NCBI RefSeq assembly: GCF_004101785.1
Contig: NZ_CP035130.1
Span: 496,001 to 560,000 of the forward strand
Direction of reading: 5' to 3'
Length of the DNA stretch: 64,000 bases
Source of the DNA: Gudongella oleilytica
GTDB lineage: Bacteria > Bacillota > Clostridia > Tissierellales > Tissierellaceae
The notes beneath the pieces were generated by a model, which did no database searches, was not told the origin of the DNA, and was given only the letters and a program-made list of their open reading frames with translations. Positions within the stretch are counted from its first letter, which is position 1. The number at the start of each line of letters is the position of its first letter. The position numbers and the translations under genes are program-made. This document shows positions 6,885 through 64,000 of the stretch, in pieces.

Positions 6885-7048
6885 ACATTTTGTGTCAACT
6901 ACTTAATTATAAGCTGAGTCATGGAAAAAAGCAAGTGCTTTTTACAAACGAATTTTCATTATATCAATAAAAATCCATACAATTTTTATTGACTACTCCT
7001 ACTCATTATGATAGCATATCACTCAGTGAAAATTAAATATCTTGATTA
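6885..7048. other. Intergenic segment between tRNA-Pro and SAM riboswitch
   Basis: No gene is seen. The segment is AT-rich and carries the likely promoter of the SAM riboswitch and metK: a TTGACT element near 6989 followed by AT-rich -10 candidates. Confidence 0.5.
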
Positions 7049-7145
7049 CCTTATCAAGAGAGGTGGAGGGATAGGCCCGATGAAACCCGGCAACCTGGTA
7101 ATACAGGTGCTAATTCCTGCAGAATGAAGATTCTGAAAGATGAGG
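7049..7145 (+). promoter_or_regulatory. SAM-I (S-box) riboswitch
   Basis: The conserved S-box blocks are present in order: AGAGAGGTGGAGGGA, GGCCCGATGAAACCCGGCAACC, a variable P3 hairpin, GGTGCTAATTCC and GAAAGATGAG. CTTATC (7050) pairs with GATGAG (7139) as the P1 helix. Binding of S-adenosylmethionine should favour the downstream terminator and shut off metK, the SAM synthetase that follows, giving end-product control. Confidence 0.96.
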
Positions 7146-7190
7146 TGTAGTGAAAACTTACACCGTTCCTTTTGGAAGGGTTTTTTTATT
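7144..7190 (+). terminator. SAM riboswitch expression platform
   Basis: A GGTGTA/TACACC hairpin is followed by CCGTTCC-TTTT-GGAAGGG and a run of seven T at about 7181. This is the terminator that forms when the S-box binds SAM. Confidence 0.75.
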
Positions 7191-12347: not shown

Positions 12348-13103
12348 ATGAAAATAAGGCTCATCAGAAATGCCACTACCTTAGTTGAGTATGCAGGGAA
12401 GAGGTTTCTAATAGATCCGGTACTTGGGGGTAAGGGATCCTTCAGAGCGTTTGGGGACTCCTTGAGAAAGGATATGAAAAACCCCATAGTTGACCTGCCC
12501 ATATCCGCAGAGGAGATAATAGATGTCGATGCCGTTGTAATAACTCACATGCATCTTGACCACTTTGATCCTGCTGCAAAGGATCTGATCCCAAAGGATA
12601 AAAAGATATATGTTGAGAACGAAGATGCTTTGAAAGTGCTGGAGGGATCAGGATTTTTGGATGTTGAGATACTGGGCAAGGGTTCAGAATTTCACGAGAT
12701 AAAACTTATTCGAACTCCAGGCCAGCATGGCAGAGGTGAAGTACTCCAGGTAATTGGAGATGTTTGTGGAGTAATATTCTCCCATCCCGCGGAGAAGACT
12801 TTATATGTCGTCGGGGATTCAGTCTGGTATGACGGAGTTCATGAGATCATAAAAACTCATCAACCGGAGGTTATTGTAGTGAACGGCGGAGGAAACGTCC
12901 TCATGGGCGAGATGCTTGTAATGGGTAAGGAGGATATACTCAAGGTCCATAAGTCAAAACCCGATGCAATGATAATTTCAGTTCACATGGAAGCTATGAA
13001 CCATTGGACGCTGTCCCGTGAGGAGTTAAGAAGCTTCGCTGAGGAAAATGGATTTATCGGGTCACTGCTCATCCCGGAGGATGGGGAGGAGATACAGATT
13101 TAG
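12348..13103 (+). CDS. MBL-fold (metallo-beta-lactamase superfamily) hydrolase
   Basis: The 251-residue product starts KIRLIRNATTLVEYAGKRFLIDPVL and contains the dinuclear-metal motif THMHLDHFDPAA, plus later VVGDSVWYDG and a C-terminal SVHMEAMNHW histidine. This fits the UlaG-like or L-ascorbate-lactonase-like branch of MBL hydrolases, but the substrate cannot be read from sequence. The start at 12348 has AAAGGAGAG upstream. It is flanked by genes on the opposite strand and stands alone. Confidence 0.88.
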   Translation: MKIRLIRNATTLVEYAGKRFLIDPVLGGKGSFRAFGDSLRKDMKNPIVDLPISAEEIIDVDAVVITHMHLDHFDPAAKDLIPKDKKIYVENEDALKVLEGSGFLDVEILGKGSEFHEIKLIRTPGQHGRGEVLQVIGDVCGVIFSHPAEKTLYVVGDSVWYDGVHEIIKTHQPEVIVVNGGGNVLMGEMLVMGKEDILKVHKSKPDAMIISVHMEAMNHWTLSREELRSFAEENGFIGSLLIPEDGEEIQI

Positions 13104-29231: not shown

Positions 29232-29243
29232 AATGATAGATAT

Positions 29244-29350
29244 ATCTTCAGGGCGAGGTGCAAGTCCTCACCGGCGGTAAAGCCCGCGAACCGAAAGGTT
29301 GATCTGGTGTAATTCCAGGGCCGACAGTTAAAGTCTGGATGAAAGAAGAT
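29244..29350 (+). promoter_or_regulatory. FMN riboswitch (RFN element)
   Basis: The RFN blocks are in order: ATCTTCAGGGCGAGGTGCAA, TCACCGGCGGTAAAGCCCGC, GAACCGAAAGGTTGATC, TGGTGTAATTCCAGGGCCGA, CAGTTAAAGTCTGGATGAAAG. ATCTTC pairs with GAAGAT as P1. FMN binding should promote the terminator at 29371 and lower expression of the riboflavin transporter gene downstream. Confidence 0.97.
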
Positions 29351-29370
29351 GGTATAATCTGTTTTAAATG

Positions 29371-55735: not shown

Positions 55736-57849
55736 TGATAATCAAGGAGTTTTACCTTGAGGGGATGGACTGAGCTAACTGTGCTTCTAGGATAGAAGCT
55801 AAGATAAATTCTATGGAAGGCGTAAACGAAGCCGCTCTTAATTTCACGAGCAGGACGCTTAGAGTAACCATTGAGGATAAGGAGATGGTATCATCCATAT
55901 CTGAAAGGGCGATTGAGATTGTAAACTTTTTTGAACCGCATGTAAAGGTACTGGATAAGGATCAAACGATCGAAAATGCAAAGCTTGACAATAAACACGG
56001 TCACGGAGGATTTTACTCTTCCAAGAGCATGAAATATGTAGCAGCAGGGGCTGTTCTCTTTATATTCGGCCTAATGCTTCCCATAGAAGGTATACCACGT
56101 CTTCTTTTATTTCTTGCTGCCTACGCTCTGGCAGGAGGAGAGGTCGTCCTGAGAGCTTTGAGGAATATATCCAGAGGTCAGATATTTGATGAAAACTTTC
56201 TTATGACAGTAGCTACAATAGGAGCCTTTGCTATTGGTGAATACCCGGAGGGTGTTGCCGTAATGCTGTTTTATCAGGTAGGCGAATATTTTCAGGACCT
56301 TGCCGTAAACAAGTCAAGAAGGTCAATAGCATCTCTTATGGACATCAGGCCTGATTATGCAAACCTAATTGAGGGAGAGGGAAGCAGAAGAGTCGAGCCT
56401 CAGACTATTTCTATTGGGGAGGACATACTTATAAAGCCAGGTGAAAGAGTTCCTCTTGATGGCATTATCACCAGTGGCTCCTCATCAATGGATACAGCAG
56501 CCCTCACCGGAGAATCGCTGCCAAGAGATGTGACTGTTGGCGACTCAGTGCTTGGAGGATTTGTAAACCGGCAAGGCCTCTTGAAGGTTAAGGTTTCGAA
56601 ACCCTATGGAGAATCGACGGTTTCAAGGATTTTACAGCTGGTAGAGGACGCCGGAGCAAGAAAAGCCCCGACAGAAAGCTTCATAACTCGATTTGCAAAA
56701 GTTTACACCCCTGCAGTTGTTTTTACGGCACTTTTTTTGGCTGTACTGCCACCTCTTTTTATAGAAGGGGCAAGCTTTTATGACTGGGTATACAGAGCCC
56801 TTATATTCCTCGTAGTATCCTGTCCATGTGCACTTGTGATCTCTATCCCTCTGGGATTTTTCGGAGGTATAGGTGGAGCATCCAGGAACGGGATCCTGGT
56901 TAAGGGAGGCAACTACCTTGAGGCTCTGAACTATATGGATACTATAGTTTTGGATAAAACAGGGACTCTGACTGAGGGCAAATTCAAGGTTTCGGAGATT
57001 TATACAAATGGCAGGCTCACTAAGGAAGAACTGCTCAGAGTTGCGGCTATCGCTGAAGCCCACTCATCTCACCCCATCGCCCTGTCAATCCTGGAGGCAT
57101 ATGGTAAGCCTGTAGAGAATGGAAGCGATCCAGGCCATAAAGAGCATGCAGGCCTGGGAATCGAGACAACCGTTGATGGTGCGAATGTTCTTATTGGGAA
57201 TGATGCACTTTTCAATAAAAGAGGGATTCTCATGGAGGGTGGCAATTCTGACAGCACTGTTGTAAATATCGCAGTAGATGGAAAATATGAAGGTCACATA
57301 ACAGTTGAAGACAGGATAAAGTCTAATGCAGGTAAGGCAATATCGGAGCTGAGATCGATGGGGGTAAGTCAGGTAATTATGCTTACTGGAGACAATAAAA
57401 ACACCACTGAAAGAGTTGCTGCAGAGCTTGGGATAGACAAGGTATACTATGAGCTGCTTCCTCAGGACAAGGTAGGTATAGTCGAAGAATTGATGGAGAA
57501 TAGCTCTAATGGGAAAAAACTTGCCTTTGCGGGAGACGGAATAAACGATGCTCCTGTTCTGGCAAGAGCAGATATCGGGATCGCAATGGGTGCCATGGGC
57601 TCAGATGCGGCAATCGAGGCTGCTGATGTTGTCCTGATGACCGATGATCTTGAGAAGCTTCCTCAGGCCTTGAGAATAGCGAGAAAAACCAGAAGGATCG
57701 TATGGCAGAACATAGCCTTTGCACTTGGCGTCAAGGGAATAGTGCTCCTGCTTGGAGCGGGAGGCCTGGCCACCATGTGGGAAGCTGTATTTGCTGATGT
57801 GGGTGTAGCTATAATTGCTGTACTCAATTCAACAAGAGCGATGAAGTAG
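55735..57849 (+). CDS. cadA: Heavy-metal P1B-type ATPase with in-frame TGA, probable selenoprotein
   Basis: Likely exports Zn/Cd/Pb. Frame from ATG 55735 is MIIKEFYLEGMD, TGA (55771-55773, codon 13), then ANCASRIEAKINSMEG, an HMA domain whose GMDCxxC motif has TGA for the first Cys and keeps Cys16. The rest is intact (704 codons): a His-rich linker, CPC at 363-365 in SCPCALVIS, phosphorylated D407 in DKTGTLTEG, HSSHP at 443-447 and GDGINDAP near 600. The TGA is followed by a SECIS-like hairpin (55783-55799). Restart at Met27 (55813) lacks a ribosome binding site and would lose the motif. The alternative is a TGC/TGT-to-TGA mutation. GAGGAGG precedes 55735, which overlaps the cadC stop. Confidence 0.85.
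55783..55799 (+). promoter_or_regulatory. Candidate bacterial SECIS hairpin
   Basis: GCTTCTA-GGA-TAGAAGC: a perfect 7-bp stem, loop GGA starting with G as in bacterial SECIS elements. The loop starts 16 nt after the TGA at 55771-55773, inside the usual window of about 16-37 nt. It codes for residues of the HMA domain, so it is part of the mRNA coding region. SelB would bind this loop to place Sec-tRNA at the UGA. Confidence 0.75.
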
Positions 57850-58012
57850 AAACAGTGAACAGTGAATAGTGAATAGTTAACAGTGAACAGTGAAACGAAC
57901 TATGAGTAAGGCAATGCCAAAAACGAAAATTACCTATACTTGTGTTATATCACTGATCGGACTTTTGTCTTGAACTATTCACTATTCACTTTTACTTATT
58001 CACTTTCTTCTC
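57850..58012. repeat. Repeat-bearing intergenic segment
   Basis: No gene. AACAGTGAACAGTGAATAGTG-like units near 57851, and AACTATTCACTATTCAC further on in the inverse sense (57973), so the segment has inverted ends. Similar TATTCACTTTTCAC tracts occur near 41135. Confidence 0.7.
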
Positions 58013-58041
58013 TTGACACTTTTTTAACACTGGATTATACT
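58013..58041 (+). promoter_or_regulatory. Promoter of permease-thioredoxin operon
   Basis: TTGACA (58013-58018) and TATACT (58036-58041) with 17-bp spacing. Confidence 0.85.
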
Positions 58042-58051
58042 GAATATATAG

Positions 58052-58067
58052 ATCGAAATAATTCGAT
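58052..58067 (+). promoter_or_regulatory. ArsR-type operator palindrome
   Basis: ATCGAA-ATAA-TTCGAT, a perfect 6-bp inverted repeat at about the expected start site. Different half-site from the cadC operator, so probably recognised by another ArsR-type repressor. Confidence 0.7.
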
Positions 58068-58093
58068 TTAACATCAACCACAGGAGGAATAAA

Positions 58094-59098
58094 ATGTCTG
58101 CTTTTAGCTGGCTAAACTCTCAGCTCCTTAAAATGGAGTGGCTTTACGATTTGATCCAACGGCTCGTCGAGGATGTATTCGGGCTGAGTATGACAACCCG
58201 GTTCGGGAATAGTCTTCATTTTTTTATCTACGATACCATTAAGATATTCTTGCTGCTATCATTCCTTATATTTGGTATTTCATATATCCAAAGCTTCTTT
58301 CCGCCTGAAAGGACCAGAAAGATCATCGGTCGGTTTAAAGGAGTTACAGCGAATCTGTTGGCTGCGCTTCTTGGAACAATAACACCTTTTTGCGCATGCT
58401 CGTCTATACCTCTTTTTATTGGCTTTACAAGCGCAGGACTCCCTATAGGTGTTACCTTCTCATTTCTTATATCCTCACCATTGGTTGACCTGGCATCCGT
58501 GCTCCTTCTTGCCAGCATATTCAACTGGAGGATAGCAATAGCATATGTTGTCGTCGGGGTAATACTTGCAGTCATCAGCGGCACCATAATAAGCAAAGCA
58601 AAGCTTGAAAAATATGTGGAATCATATGTGTTTAATAACCCTTTGATAGACCTGGACCAGGACGAGCTAACAACCGGCCAGAGGCTCAGGTTTGCCAAGC
58701 TCCAGGTGGATGACATAATCAAAAAGGTTTGGATATATATTCTGGTGGGAGTTGGAATAGGAGCAATGATCCACAATTATATCCCCGAAAACATTATCAC
58801 TGCGGTTTTAGGACAGGACAAGTGGTATTCAGTGCCTGTAGCCACTTTTGTGGGAATACCTATGTATGCAGATATATTCGGGACTCTGCCCATAGCAGAG
58901 GCATTGGTAACTAAAGGTGTGGGAATTGGAACCGTAATGTCCTTTATGATGGCAGTAACTGCTTTATCGCTTCCTTCAATGATAATGCTTTCAAAGGTTG
59001 TCAAGCCAAAGCTTTTAGGAGTTTTCGCAGGAGTAGTATCAGTGGGTATACTTATTATAGGGTTTGCATTTAATGGCTTCAGCCATTTGTTTATATGA
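58094..59098 (+). CDS. Permease (ArsP/DUF318-like), metalloid or thiol-metal exporter
   Basis: 334 residues, about eight hydrophobic segments. The motif TPFCACSSIPLFIGFTSAG is the CxCSxxP signature of the ArsP/DUF318 permease family, some members of which export organoarsenicals; the substrate here is not shown. SSPLVDLASVLLLASIF and GIPMYADIFGTLPIAEAL follow. AGGAGGAAT precedes the ATG. It is followed at 17 nt by a small thioredoxin-like protein, a common pair. Confidence 0.9.
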   Translation: MSAFSWLNSQLLKMEWLYDLIQRLVEDVFGLSMTTRFGNSLHFFIYDTIKIFLLLSFLIFGISYIQSFFPPERTRKIIGRFKGVTANLLAALLGTITPFCACSSIPLFIGFTSAGLPIGVTFSFLISSPLVDLASVLLLASIFNWRIAIAYVVVGVILAVISGTIISKAKLEKYVESYVFNNPLIDLDQDELTTGQRLRFAKLQVDDIIKKVWIYILVGVGIGAMIHNYIPENIITAVLGQDKWYSVPVATFVGIPMYADIFGTLPIAEALVTKGVGIGTVMSFMMAVTALSLPSMIMLSKVVKPKLLGVFAGVVSVGILIIGFAFNGFSHLFI

Positions 59099-59115
59099 TA
59101 AAGGGAGGAATTAAT

Positions 59116-59355
59116 ATGGAACTTAAGATTCTTGGAACAGGTTGTAAGAAATGCGAAGAATTGACAAAGAATGCAGAAACCGCAATTAAAGAGGATGGAA
59201 TAGAGGCTACGGTCGTAAAGGAAACTGACTTCAGAAAGATCATGGGATACGGAGTTATGTCCACCCCTGCGTTAGTTATCAATGAAAAGGTAGTCTCGGC
59301 TGGAAAGGTGCTCAAAACGTCAGAAATCAAAGATTTATTAAAGAAATTTGTTTAA
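59116..59355 (+). CDS. Small thioredoxin-fold protein (GCKKC)
   Basis: 79 residues, MELKILGTGCKKCEELTKNAE with a CxxC redox pair and the cis-proline strand MSTPALVIN. This is the MTH895/TM0996-like thioredoxin family often placed next to ArsP-type permeases. I chose the ATG at 59116 after AGGGAGGAA. It may reduce the permease or its substrate; this is inference. No selenocysteine TGA in its CxxC. Confidence 0.9.
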   Translation: MELKILGTGCKKCEELTKNAETAIKEDGIEATVVKETDFRKIMGYGVMSTPALVINEKVVSAGKVLKTSEIKDLLKKFV

Positions 59356-59416
59356 TTTAAAATCAAGTTGACATATCCTTTTAATATTGCTACACTCAGT
59401 ATGTGAAGAGAATATG

Positions 59417-59485
59417 GCTCATATAGTTCCCAAAATATGGTTGGGATGTATCTAGGACGTGACCGAGAATCACATCACTATGAGC
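59417..59485 (+). promoter_or_regulatory. Guanine (purine-class) riboswitch aptamer
   Basis: P1 is GCTCATA/TATGAGC. P2 CCCAA-AATATGG-TTGGG and P3 GTGA-CCGAGAA-TCAC carry the loops that kiss in purine riboswitches. J2/3 reads ATGTATCTA and J3/1 reads ACTATGAG with C at the ligand-pairing position, which indicates guanine, not adenine. It runs directly into the PRPP aptamer. Confidence 0.93.
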
Positions 59486-59580
59486 GAAAGTGTACCTAGG
59501 GTTCCGTGGGATTTTCCCAGCAGGTCCGAGCGGTACAGGTGCTCACCGCACTACACCGGAGGGATAAAAGCCCAGGCGGG
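59485..59580 (+). promoter_or_regulatory. PRPP riboswitch (ykkC subtype 2 class) aptamer
   Basis: ykkC-class blocks are in order: GCGAAAGTGTACCTAGGGTT, GGTCCGAGCGG, ACCGGAGGGATAAAAGCCC. Position before a purine permease and purC, in tandem with a guanine aptamer, points to the PRPP-sensing subtype rather than guanidine or ppGpp. PRPP should favour the aptamer over the terminator that begins at 59569, turning the genes on. Confidence 0.9.
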
Positions 59581-59620
59581 TAGGTTTCGCTAGACCTACC
59601 CGCCTGGGCTATATTTTTTT
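59569..59620 (+). terminator. Expression-platform terminator of guanine-PRPP riboswitch 1
   Basis: AGCCCAGGCGGGTAGGT pairs with ACCTACCCGCCTGGGCT around TTCGCTAG, then a T-run. Its left arm overlaps the end of the PRPP aptamer (AAAAGCCC), so the two structures exclude each other. Confidence 0.92.
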
Positions 59621-59650: not shown

Positions 59651-60952
59651 GTGGAGAGTTTCTTTAGATTGAAGGAGCACAACACAACAGTAAAGACTGA
59701 GGTTCTTGCAGGTATCACAACGTTCATGACTATGGCATACATACTTGCAGTCAATCCGGGTATGCTATCAGCTACAGGAATGGATGCAGGCGGTGTTTTT
59801 ACCGCAACAGTAGTTTCTTCAATGATAGCAACCCTTATAATGGCTCTTTACGCCAAGTATCCATTTGCACTTGCACCAGGAATGGGCTTGAATGCGTTCT
59901 TTGCATTTACCGTAGTTCTTGGACCTATGGGCAAAAGCTGGCAGTTTGCGCTTACAGCAGTATTAATTGAAGGTATAATCTTTATTCTTTTATCATTCGT
60001 CAAGGCTCGTGAGGCAATATTCGACTCGATACCAATGAATCTCAAGCATGCAGTGTCAGTCGGCATTGGTCTTTTCATAGCAATAATCGGACTTAGCGGA
60101 GCAGGGATCGTGGTTCCAGGGAATGGCACAGTCCTTGCACTTGGGGATCTTACATCAGGTCCAGTGGCTGTTGCTCTTTTTGGTATACTGGTAACAGGTG
60201 TACTACTGGCTAAAAATGTCAGCGGAGCTATCCTAATAGGTATAATCGCTTCAACCCTTATAGGTATCCCATTAGGAGTTACAATGATCCCTGAGGGCTT
60301 CAGCATATTAAGCCTTCCTCCATCGTTGGCACCTGTGGCATTCAAGTTTGTGGGTATGGAAGAGATACTATCCATGGAAATGCTTGTAGTAGTATTTACC
60401 TTCCTGTTTGTAGACATATTCGATACAGTTGGTACACTTGCAGGTGTATCTTCTAAAGCGGGCTTCCTTGATAAGGACGGAAAGCTTCCCAGGGTAGGCA
60501 AGGCTTTGATGGCTGATGCTGTTGGAACGGTTGCAGGAGCGTGTCTGGGTACAAGCACTGTTACAACATACGTGGAAAGCGCCGCAGGAGTAGCTGGAGG
60601 CGGAAGAACAGGTCTGACTTCTCTTGCGACTGCAGGGATGTTTGCACTGGCATTGTTCTTCGCACCGCTGTTTACCATGATACCTGCAGCGGCAACAGGA
60701 CCCGCTCTTGTAATAGTAGGCTTATTTATGATGAGCCCGATCAAGAAGATCGACTTTGAGGATTTCACCGAAGCCATACCGGCATTCCTCACAATCGTAA
60801 TGATGCCATTTGCATACAGTATCGCTGATGGTATCGTATTTGGTATGGTATCCTATGTAATACTTAAAGCCCTGACAGGAAGAACCAAAGAGATATCAAA
60901 GGTCATGTGGCTTCTTGCAGTATTGTTCGTTTTGAAATTCGTTTTGATGTAG
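59651..60952 (+). CDS. NCS2-family guanine/hypoxanthine permease (PbuG/AzgA-like)
   Basis: Imports purine bases. 433 residues, about 12 membrane segments, starting VESFFRLKEHNTTVKTEVLAGITTFMTMAYIL and with ALAPGMGLNAFFAF and DIFDTVGTLAGVS motifs of this family. The GTG start at 59651 follows GGAGGAGGATC. Control by guanine and PRPP supports a purine substrate. It is followed by purC after 12 nt. Confidence 0.95.
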   Translation: MESFFRLKEHNTTVKTEVLAGITTFMTMAYILAVNPGMLSATGMDAGGVFTATVVSSMIATLIMALYAKYPFALAPGMGLNAFFAFTVVLGPMGKSWQFALTAVLIEGIIFILLSFVKAREAIFDSIPMNLKHAVSVGIGLFIAIIGLSGAGIVVPGNGTVLALGDLTSGPVAVALFGILVTGVLLAKNVSGAILIGIIASTLIGIPLGVTMIPEGFSILSLPPSLAPVAFKFVGMEEILSMEMLVVVFTFLFVDIFDTVGTLAGVSSKAGFLDKDGKLPRVGKALMADAVGTVAGACLGTSTVTTYVESAAGVAGGGRTGLTSLATAGMFALALFFAPLFTMIPAAATGPALVIVGLFMMSPIKKIDFEDFTEAIPAFLTIVMMPFAYSIADGIVFGMVSYVILKALTGRTKEISKVMWLLAVLFVLKFVLM

Positions 60953-60964
60953 GGGGAGAAAAAC

Positions 60965-61651
60965 ATGGAATTAGTCTACACCGGCAAAACAAAAAATGTC
61001 TATAAGCTTGAAGACGGGAATTATCTTCTCAAGTTCAAGGACGACGTTACTGGAGAGAATGGGGTGTTTGACCCAGGTGCCAACACAGTTGGACTTAGCA
61101 TTGAAGGAGCTGGAAAGGCCGGATTGAGACTGACAACATTCTTCTTTGAGAAAATAAACGAGAAGGGTATACCGACACACTTTGTATCGGCTGATATAGA
61201 TAACAACACAATGACCGTGCTGCCTGCAACTCTGTTCGGGCAGGGTGTCGAGGTTATCTGCAGATACAGGGCGGTAGGAAGCTTCCTAAAAAGATACGGA
61301 AGGTACGTGACTGAAGGTCAGGAGCTTGACGCATATGTGGAGGTAACCCTTAAGGACGACGACAGAAATGATCCTCTGATAACAGATGACGGTCTGGCGA
61401 TGCTTGGTATAATGACCTTGGAGGAGTATAAAACTCTAACCGAATTGACTAAGAAGATTGGCGCAGTTGTAAAGGAAGAACTGGCTAAGAAGGGTCTTGA
61501 GCTCTACGATATCAAGTTTGAGTTCGGGAGAGTTGGGGAGGATAAACACATCGCTCTGATCGATGAGATTTCCGGAGGGAACATGAGGGCTTTCAAGGGT
61601 CCAGAGTACATCGAGCCGCTTAAGCTGGAACAATTGATGCTCAACGAATAA
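60965..61651 (+). CDS. purC: SAICAR synthetase
   Basis: Joins aspartate to CAIR in de novo purine synthesis. 228 residues, MELVYTGKTKNVYKLEDGNYLLKF, ATP region VICRYRAVGSFLKRYG, and the substrate motif GLELYDIKFEFGRVGE...LIDEISGGNMRAF. Follows the permease by 12 nt after GGGGGAG. The stop is only 6 nt before the second guanine-PRPP riboswitch. Confidence 0.98.
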   Translation: MELVYTGKTKNVYKLEDGNYLLKFKDDVTGENGVFDPGANTVGLSIEGAGKAGLRLTTFFFEKINEKGIPTHFVSADIDNNTMTVLPATLFGQGVEVICRYRAVGSFLKRYGRYVTEGQELDAYVEVTLKDDDRNDPLITDDGLAMLGIMTLEEYKTLTELTKKIGAVVKEELAKKGLELYDIKFEFGRVGEDKHIALIDEISGGNMRAFKGPEYIEPLKLEQLMLNE

Positions 61652-61657
61652 AAAAAT

Positions 61658-61726
61658 GCTCATATAAGTCTCTTAATAGGGGGGAGACGTCTCTACTAAA
61701 TGACCGTAAATCATTTGTCTATGAGC
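61658..61726 (+). promoter_or_regulatory. Second guanine riboswitch aptamer
   Basis: P1 GCTCATA/TATGAGC is again perfect. P2 is CTCTT/GGGAG with loop AATAGGG; P3 is AAATGA-CCGTAAA-TCATTT, where L3 matches the classic CCGTAAA. J3/1 reads GTCTATGAG: C is at the ligand position (guanine), although the base before it is T, not the usual A. It lies 6 nt after purC, with no separate promoter seen. Confidence 0.9.
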
Positions 61727-61825
61727 GAAAGTGTGTCTAGGGTTCCGGGAGGGTTTCTCCGCTGGCCCAAGCGACACAGATACAACGAGTTGTATTACAC
61801 CGAAGGGAGAAAAGCCCAGGCGGGT
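61726..61825 (+). promoter_or_regulatory. Second PRPP riboswitch aptamer
   Basis: GCGAAAGTGTGTCTAGGGTT, GGCCCAAGCGA and ACCGAAGGGAGAAAAGCCC are diverged copies of the first aptamer's blocks. Expected to turn purL on when PRPP is high. Confidence 0.88.
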
Positions 61826-61862
61826 AGGTTTCGCTTTTAAACCTACCCGCCTGGGCTTTTCA
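61812..61862 (+). terminator. Expression-platform terminator of guanine-PRPP riboswitch 2
   Basis: AAGCCCAGGCGGGTAGGTTT pairs with AAACCTACCCGCCTGGGCTT around a short T-rich loop, followed by TTTCATTTT. The arm sequence is the same as in riboswitch 1. Confidence 0.92.
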
Positions 61863-61879
61863 TTTTAAAGGAGGATAAA

Positions 61880-64000
61880 ATGGAACATCAAAGAATCATA
61901 ATCGAGAAAAAACCTCAACACAATATCGAAGGCAAAAAGCTACTTAAGGATGCTGTGGACTATCTGGGGCTAAAGGGCATAGAAAGACTTTCGGTCGCAA
62001 CAATCTATGATCTGGTGTATGCAACTCGTGAGCAAGCAAAGGATATAACGGACAAGCTTCTGTTCGACCCTGCAATGGACATGAATCCTGTATCAAAGGT
62101 TGAGCTGGAGGATGGAGAGCTTGCCTTCAGAGTTGAATACCATAAGGGCCAGTATGATCAGAGACAACATTCAACAGAGGCGATCATAAGGAATTACCTG
62201 GGCTTCGATGAAATCAGAGTCAAGACCTCAAGACTTGTAAAGGCTAAAGGACTGGATGAAGAAGGTATTAAAAAGCTCAAGTCGTACTTTATTAATCCCA
62301 TCGAGGCAAAGGAGGTCCCCCTGGATAAATTCCTATGGCAGGAGGAAAAGGAGAATGAGTCGGCTATCCCTGTTGTTGAGGGATTCATAGCATCCGATGA
62401 GGAACAGCTTAAAAAGCTGAAGAGGGAGATCGGCTTTGCGATGGATATTGATGACCTCGCCCATTGCAGAGACTACTTCAGGAGCAAGGACAGAAACCCG
62501 ACAATAGCAGAGCTGAAGATGCTTGACACCTACTGGTCCGATCACTGCAGGCACACTACCTTCATGACTGAGCTTACTGAGGTAAAGGTCGATGCAGGCA
62601 AATACCAGGGGCTCTTTCAAAGTGCATTGGACAGCTATATGGAGTCCAGACAGTTCGCCCATGGAAACAGCAAGGTGATTTCTCTTATGGACCTTGCAAC
62701 TATAAACATGAGAGAGATAACAAAGAAGGGACTTCTCGATGACAAGGAAGTATCGGATGAGATAAATGCGGCAAGCATAGAAATCGATGTCGATGTAGAT
62801 GGGAAAACTGAAAGATGGCTGTTGATGTTTAAAAATGAGACACACAACCATCCAACTGAGATCGAGCCATTTGGCGGCGCATCCACATGCCTTGGAGGAG
62901 GTATCCGTGACCCGCTTTCAGGCAGGAGCTACGTCTACCAGGCTATGAGGATAACCGGTGCGGCAGATCCGAGAAGAGCCTTTGAGGAGACGAGAAAAGG
63001 CAAGCTCCCGCAGAGGAAGATAACAAGGACGGCGATGGACGGCTACAGCTCCTATGGATATCAGATCGGTGGGACATCAGGCTATATCCACGAGGTCTAC
63101 GATGACGGCTTCATGGCAAAAAGAATGGAGCTTGGCGCTTTGGTTTCTGCAGTTCCTAAGGATTGGGTGCAAAGAGGGAAGCCGGAGCCTACGGATCTGG
63201 TGCTTCTTATAGGAGGAGAAACAGGCAGAGACGGTCTTGGAGCAGCGGTAGGGTCATCTGTGGAGCAAAAAAGCGATGCATTGGTAACGGCAGGGGCAGA
63301 GGTACAGAAAGGGAATCCACCTCTGGAGAGAAAAATAGTAAGGCTTTTCAGAAATCCCAAGGCGACAAGGCTGATAAAGAAATGCAACGACTTTGGCGCT
63401 GGCGGAGTGGCAGTGGCAGTCGGTGAGCTTGCAGACGGTTTATACATTGACCTGGATAAGGTTCCGGTCAAATACCCAGGTATGGATGGAGGAGAGATTG
63501 CGCTTTCAGAATCTCAGGAGAGAATGGCCTTAGTAATAGCTGAAAAAGACCTGGAGGTCTTCAGGGGTCTCTGCTTGGACGAGGATCTTGATGTAGCAGT
63601 GATCGCCAAGGTAACTGATGAGAATAGAGTCCAGATGGTGTGGAAGGGCAGCACCATAATCGACATAGACAGAGAGTTCATTGAAACCAGCGGGATAAGA
63701 AAGAAGAGCAGAGTTCACGTTGCCGGGCCAGAGGGATCGGCATACCTTACAAGGCTCCCGGAGTGGATAAAGGGAGAAAATACGAAGGAGGATTTCCTCG
63801 CAAATATATCTCAGCTCAATACCTGCTCACAAAAGGGACTGGTTGAGAGATTTGACAATACGATTGGGTCAGGAAGTGTATTCTTACAGCTTGGAGGCAA
63901 GCACCAGCTTACACCTCAGGAGGGTATGGCGGCAAAGCTGCCAGTACTGAATGGAAACACTAAGACATGCTCCTTAATGACCTATGGGTACGATCCTGAA
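61880..64000 (+). CDS. purL: Phosphoribosylformylglycinamidine synthase (3' end beyond window)
   Basis: Converts FGAR to FGAM using glutamine and ATP. The frame is open from ATG 61880 (after AAAGGAGGAT) to the window end, 707 codons. It contains MLDTYWSDHCRHTTF, FKNETHNHPTEIEPFGGASTCLGGGIRDPL, RITGAADPRR, GGETGRDGLGAA and NDFGAGGVAVAVGELADG. Residue 1 is unlike the small PurQ/PurS-dependent type; the length suggests the large single-chain form of Clostridia and Proteobacteria. The last part and any glutaminase domain lie outside the window. Confidence 0.97.
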   Translation, partial: MEHQRIIIEKKPQHNIEGKKLLKDAVDYLGLKGIERLSVATIYDLVYATREQAKDITDKLLFDPAMDMNPVSKVELEDGELAFRVEYHKGQYDQRQHSTEAIIRNYLGFDEIRVKTSRLVKAKGLDEEGIKKLKSYFINPIEAKEVPLDKFLWQEEKENESAIPVVEGFIASDEEQLKKLKREIGFAMDIDDLAHCRDYFRSKDRNPTIAELKMLDTYWSDHCRHTTFMTELTEVKVDAGKYQGLFQSALDSYMESRQFAHGNSKVISLMDLATINMREITKKGLLDDKEVSDEINAASIEIDVDVDGKTERWLLMFKNETHNHPTEIEPFGGASTCLGGGIRDPLSGRSYVYQAMRITGAADPRRAFEETRKGKLPQRKITRTAMDGYSSYGYQIGGTSGYIHEVYDDGFMAKRMELGALVSAVPKDWVQRGKPEPTDLVLLIGGETGRDGLGAAVGSSVEQKSDALVTAGAEVQKGNPPLERKIVRLFRNPKATRLIKKCNDFGAGGVAVAVGELADGLYIDLDKVPVKYPGMDGGEIALSESQERMALVIAEKDLEVFRGLCLDEDLDVAVIAKVTDENRVQMVWKGSTIIDIDREFIETSGIRKKSRVHVAGPEGSAYLTRLPEWIKGENTKEDFLANISQLNTCSQKGLVERFDNTIGSGSVFLQLGGKHQLTPQEGMAAKLPVLNGNTKTCSLMTYGYDPE

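Follow-up and report, generated by a model that had tools for sequence, protein, structure and literature searches.

The tandem guanine-PRPP riboswitch has been described as an RNA IMPLY gate (Sherlock et al. 2018, PMC5912903), and 192 examples of the tandem are given in PMC9481103. In these gates, 5 to 7 nt lie between the two P1 stems (PMC5912903). PRPP aptamers are separated from ppGpp aptamers by G96, which the ppGpp type does not have, and PRPP has been proposed to stabilise helix P0 at the expense of the guanine P1 (PMC6031431). More than one riboswitch on the same operon or region is also on record: an operon of Vreelandella boliviensis pairs a Gd-I guanidine riboswitch in its 5' UTR with a Gd-II guanidine riboswitch in an intergenic position (PMC12508155), and Desulfobacca acetoxidans has seven riboswitches in series within 7 kb (PMC9481103). 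In the freely readable main texts of the main PRPP-riboswitch literature, we found no description of serial use of the guanine-PRPP gate. Here, we report two such gates in one purine operon of Gudongella oleilytica, within a 64,000-nt window (the whole stretch of DNA analysed). We consider it likely that the downstream copy, gate 2, is an intact IMPLY-type attenuation switch that stands in series with gate 1 and is fed mainly by read-through.

Two gates in one purine operon

The operon is ordered promoter, gate 1, permease, purC, gate 2 and purL-E-F-M-N-H-D, with all features that follow on the forward strand. A consensus scan places the promoter at 59368-59396 (TTGACA-17-TACACT with a TG extended -10). 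Gate 1 (59416-59619) is composed of a guanine aptamer at 59416-59485 (specificity C at 59478; 64.2 bits with RF00167 and 79.6 bits with our R2 model), a PRPP aptamer at 59482-59593 (61.7 bits with RF00442, 115.8 bits with our R1 model) whose P0 helix pairs 59483-59489 with 59585-59591 and whose G96-equivalent is 59575, and an intrinsic terminator at 59569-59619 (-38.9 kcal/mol). It is followed by a purine permease (Xan_ur_permease, NCS2; 59651-60952; PF00860, E 7.5e-48) and by purC (SAICAR synthase; 60965-61651; PF01259, E 5e-38; TIGR00081, E 4e-30 and below its cut-off), with the stop codon at 61649-61651. Gate 2 (61657-61866) has the same parts: a guanine aptamer at 61657-61726 (specificity C at 61719; R2 90.0 bits), a PRPP aptamer at 61723-61837 (R1 119.3 bits) with P0 formed by 61724-61730 and 61829-61835 and the G96-equivalent at 61819, and an intrinsic terminator at 61809-61866 (-44.0 kcal/mol), i.e., a 53-nt hairpin (61809-61861) and a U-rich tail, the 5' arm and loop of which hold the P0 3' strand. 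The first guanine P1 pair, at 61658, is 7 nt past the purC stop. The ATG of purL (single-chain FGAM synthase; TIGR01857, 1433 bits on the full gene) is at 61880, and the gene (61880-64000) extends past the window; from purL to purD, the genes, identified after purL from annotation, overlap or are separated by gaps of 0-15 nt.

Two further observations concern the surroundings. Upstream of the operon, on the same strand (55813-59410), lie genes for a metal P-type ATPase, an SaoE-like permease and a thioredoxin-like protein; no strong terminator separates them from the purine operon, so gate 1 may also block their read-through. Elsewhere in the window, SAM (S box) and FMN riboswitches score above gathering (7048-7146 and 29240-29354).

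The identity of both halves is supported by several features. The Rfam Purine model RF00167 matches gate 2 at 61640-61741 with 76.5 bits (E 7.5e-12), and both gates exceed its gathering cut-off (37 bits). The Guanidine-I model RF00442 finds the ykkC core fold in gate 2 (E 5e-10) and gate 1 (E 1e-10), with scores (58.8 and 61.7 bits) below its gathering cut-off of 63 bits; such slight shortfalls are expected of ykkC subtype 2b, the PRPP type. The guanine-specifying C, rather than the U that would specify adenine, is present in both gates and invariant across 32 aligned guanine aptamers, and the G96-equivalent, a position we inferred via the contacts named in PMC6031431, is G in both gates and in 35/35 aligned PRPP aptamers. 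Helix P0 is 97% paired over the 35 aptamers with compensatory changes at five of its seven pairs, a covariation that none of 500 shuffles reached for the counted structure. The three helices of the guanine aptamer are 98% paired in the set of 32, and 12 of their 19 pairs are compensated. In the alignments, both gates have 5 nt from P1 stem to P1 stem and one terminator each. Judged by these sequence features, 61657-61866 is a complete tandem guanine and PRPP (ykkC 2b) riboswitch with one common terminator. Guanine and PRPP binding, and in vivo action of both gates, would carry over from the studied homologues.

The two copies are 71% identical across 134 nt of aptamer and 95% identical in a 40-nt stretch that surrounds the terminator 5' arm, and gate 2 outscores gate 1 on both halves with the R1 and R2 models. 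The near-identity of the arm does not set these two copies apart, since the arm belongs to the conserved PRPP aptamer. As this holds in all relatives, we rejected the idea that gene conversion had homogenised the two terminators. A differing P1/P0 balance between the gates was also dropped: with equal segments, P1 and P0 are nearly equal in strength in both gates, and the two gates are effectively the same (-7.8/-7.8 and -7.8/-7.2 kcal/mol). A preliminary description of this DNA had placed a second complete gate 6 nt past the purC end at 61651, and had described its aptamers as diverged with the gate logic kept; both points are borne out, as the aptamer starts at 61657 with matches to both halves, and both aptamers and the single terminator are retained despite the 71% aptamer identity. 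It had also assigned the gate to purL, which gate 2 does directly precede, but seven genes (purL-E-F-M-N-H-D) follow it, not purL alone.

The proposed mechanism follows from strands that are used twice. In gate 2, AGCGAAA (61724-61730) pairs with TTTCGCT (61829-61835) as P0; the first bases of AGCGAAA double as the 3' strand of the guanine P1, and TTTCGCT lies inside the terminator hairpin region, so the sequence agrees with the proposal of PMC6031431. In each gate, the 3' side of the guanine P1 and the PRPP P0 helix use one strand: guanine would favour P1, freeing the P0 3' strand for the terminator to form, and PRPP would favour P0, blocking the terminator. Most RNA polymerase arriving at gate 2 would have read through gate 1, and guanine and PRPP would be checked again about 2.2 kb after gate 1. 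If so, distal output would be roughly what multiplying the two read-through probabilities gives, and the logic would stay IMPLY, probably steeper for purL-D than for permease-purC. Please note that two IMPLY gates with the same inputs in series equal one IMPLY, and the expected effect is quantitative and temporal rather than a new logic. A sharper response of purL than of purC to guanine and PRPP is plausible; it requires that both gates are active and that there is no internal start.

Gate 2 in related genomes

A serial pair flanking purC, with or without the permease, was found in 19 genomes from nine genera and four families of the same order; these genomes are related, and the numbers should not be taken as independent events. 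All 38 gates have an intact PRPP aptamer (97-126 bits). The guanine aptamer is intact in both gates of nine pairs, in gate 1 only in eight, in neither gate in two and never in gate 2 only; gate 2 of the window has it intact. Where gate 2 alone has lost it, weak remnants (22-25 bits) are left in three pairs and none was detected in five. These eight pairs fall in four genera, and perhaps four independent losses occurred. In the two pairs with neither guanine aptamer (L021, L022), a short hairpin (GCTCAT...GGGC) stands before the PRPP aptamer at the expected place of the gate-1 guanine aptamer, perhaps a collapsed P1.

Gate 2 itself is absent from some relatives: at L024, L038 and L066, purL comes directly after purC without an intervening gate. 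Together with the guanine losses in 8/19 pairs, this indicates that the order as a whole does not require guanine to be checked twice and that gate 2 may be under weak selection. Three congeners (L005-L007) have purE, not purL, after gate 2, suggesting that the gate travels with the purC 3' end. Among 80 named relatives retrieved by PurC, one (L066) has a PRPP gate. A gate tree intended to date the duplication is poorly resolved because the sequences are too short; in it, the two gates of a genus cluster together for several genera, and same-position copies group across species in genus g8 and, for gate 1, in genus g1.

A few sites in relatives are recorded as separate observations. Just past the gate-2 terminator and before purE, there are extended -10-like sites in L005 (TGGTATAAT) and L006 (GGGTATAAT), which could start transcription of purE onward, bypassing gate 2. 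In L003, a formate-tetrahydrofolate ligase gene lies after purD, preceded by a 181-nt gap (12889-13071) with a promoter-like TTGAAA-16-TATACT with TG, and ends at a terminator-like hairpin.

How polymerase reaches gate 2

Whether gate 2 is entered serially depends on promoters. In 17/19 serial pairs, gate 1 is preceded by an extended -10 promoter, which lies 97-113 nt ahead of its PRPP core; for gate 2, no comparable promoter was found at a fixed place within 340 nt upstream in the 19 pairs. The promoter score of gate 1 is above that of gate 2 in 18/19 pairs (Wilcoxon p 1e-4), the test covering sigma-A-type sites and its matrices being approximate. A narrower test gave p ≤ 0.05 in 88% of 51 gates that are gate 1 or the only gate, a group into which two gate-2 copies (L008, L009) had been mislabelled, versus 0/14 gate-2 copies. 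In the window, neither a strong terminator between the two gates nor a promoter directly upstream of gate 2 was found. Two species of genus g8 (L013, L014) have a promoter-like TTGACA-18-AATAAT at the purC end (score 12.2; p 0.07 and 0.03), within 60 nt of the core and therefore outside the 340-nt test. Genome G725, which belongs to a different family of the phylum, has two PRPP gates 4.8 kb apart, each, by eye, apparently with its own promoter.

The preliminary description had seen no promoter between purC and purL and had proposed serial wiring. None adjoins gate 2, as it stated, but a promoter-like site lies within purC, outside the interval it inspected; the serial proposal gains from the conserved layout and from the contrast of a strong gate 1 promoter with none recognisable at gate 2, and it is qualified by the same site. 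Overall, serial wiring is well supported by the comparison of genomes, and most transcripts would probably pass both gates.

The purC-internal site (61386-61413, forward strand; ATGACG-16-TGgTATAAT, i.e., a weak -35 followed by a TATAAT that TG precedes) is the basis of one rival account, namely that a promoter there, or elsewhere past gate 1, feeds gate 2 only. Its score of 12.2 stands out from synonymous-codon shuffles of purC (z 2.7, p 0.03), and it could feed gate 2 alone. In that case, part of purL-D transcription would pass no other gate than gate 2, and the regulation of purL would be weaker than that of purC. By eye, however, TATAAT is absent at the homologous site in two congeners (L006, L007), and the gate-2 copies of the other 18 pairs show nothing comparable at a constant position; we regard this parallel entry as unlikely. 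Another possibility is that gate 2, as a redundant duplicate, is being lost and has been retained by chance, with a small serial effect. The absent or degenerate guanine half in 8/19 gate-2 copies and the missing gate past purC in L024, L038 and L066 speak for it, yet none of the 19 copies has a damaged PRPP half, the window's gate 2 beats gate 1 in score for both halves, and the gate-2 copies of the genus vary in P2 while remaining paired; we regard such decay as unlikely.

The position of the guanine aptamer invites a further reading, that the 5' strand of the guanine P1 is masked by the ribosome as it completes purC, and that guanine acts at gate 2 only when translation lags behind the polymerase; this would also explain the loss of guanine sensing in gate 2. 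Indeed, the first P1 pair is 1-8 nt past the purC stop in seven of the nine gate-2 copies with a guanine aptamer. The remaining two intact copies, however, sit 19 and 33 nt from the stop, and most gaps in the operon are 0-15 nt regardless; short gaps being usual, the closeness of P1 to the stop needs no special cause, and we give this translational coupling a small chance. It is similarly doubtful that the operon has a two-stage checkpoint whose middle gate evolves from guanine-PRPP to PRPP-only because the ribosome terminating at purC hides the guanine P1 strand; if true, transcription, translation and two metabolites would be read jointly at one spot. We favour serial attenuation by two intact gates over these accounts.

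Comparison with described systems

If the serial reading is right, an RNA logic gate has been reused serially on one transcript, an arrangement that recurs in nine genera and four families, and of the two inputs, guanine is by far the more often lost from the downstream copies. The comparison of purC with purL within one strain would then be a built-in test of response sharpening by cascaded attenuators, for which sister genera with a full, a PRPP-only or a missing second gate would serve as natural controls.

Each gate resembles that of PMC5912903 in having the guanine aptamer directly before a ykkC 2b PRPP aptamer with 5 nt between P1 stems, one common terminator overlapping the PRPP aptamer, and purine genes downstream. 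Unlike that gate, the whole unit occurs here twice in series within one operon, and the second copy starts a few nt past a stop codon and has no dedicated promoter that we could recognise. In the Desulfobacca acetoxidans region (PMC9481103), several riboswitches likewise lie along one stretch with ORFs between them, but they respond to other ligands (c-di-GMP, AdoCbl, c-AMP-GMP) and are described as three independent logic devices. The Vreelandella boliviensis guanidine operon (PMC12508155) is a precedent for the serial layout, as a second riboswitch for a related ligand sits inside an operon already headed by one; there, two riboswitch classes presumably act on transcription and translation, whereas here one two-input terminator gate is used twice. 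The switch type is thus known, and the new part, with none described in the literature searched, is its serial arrangement, recurring in related genera.
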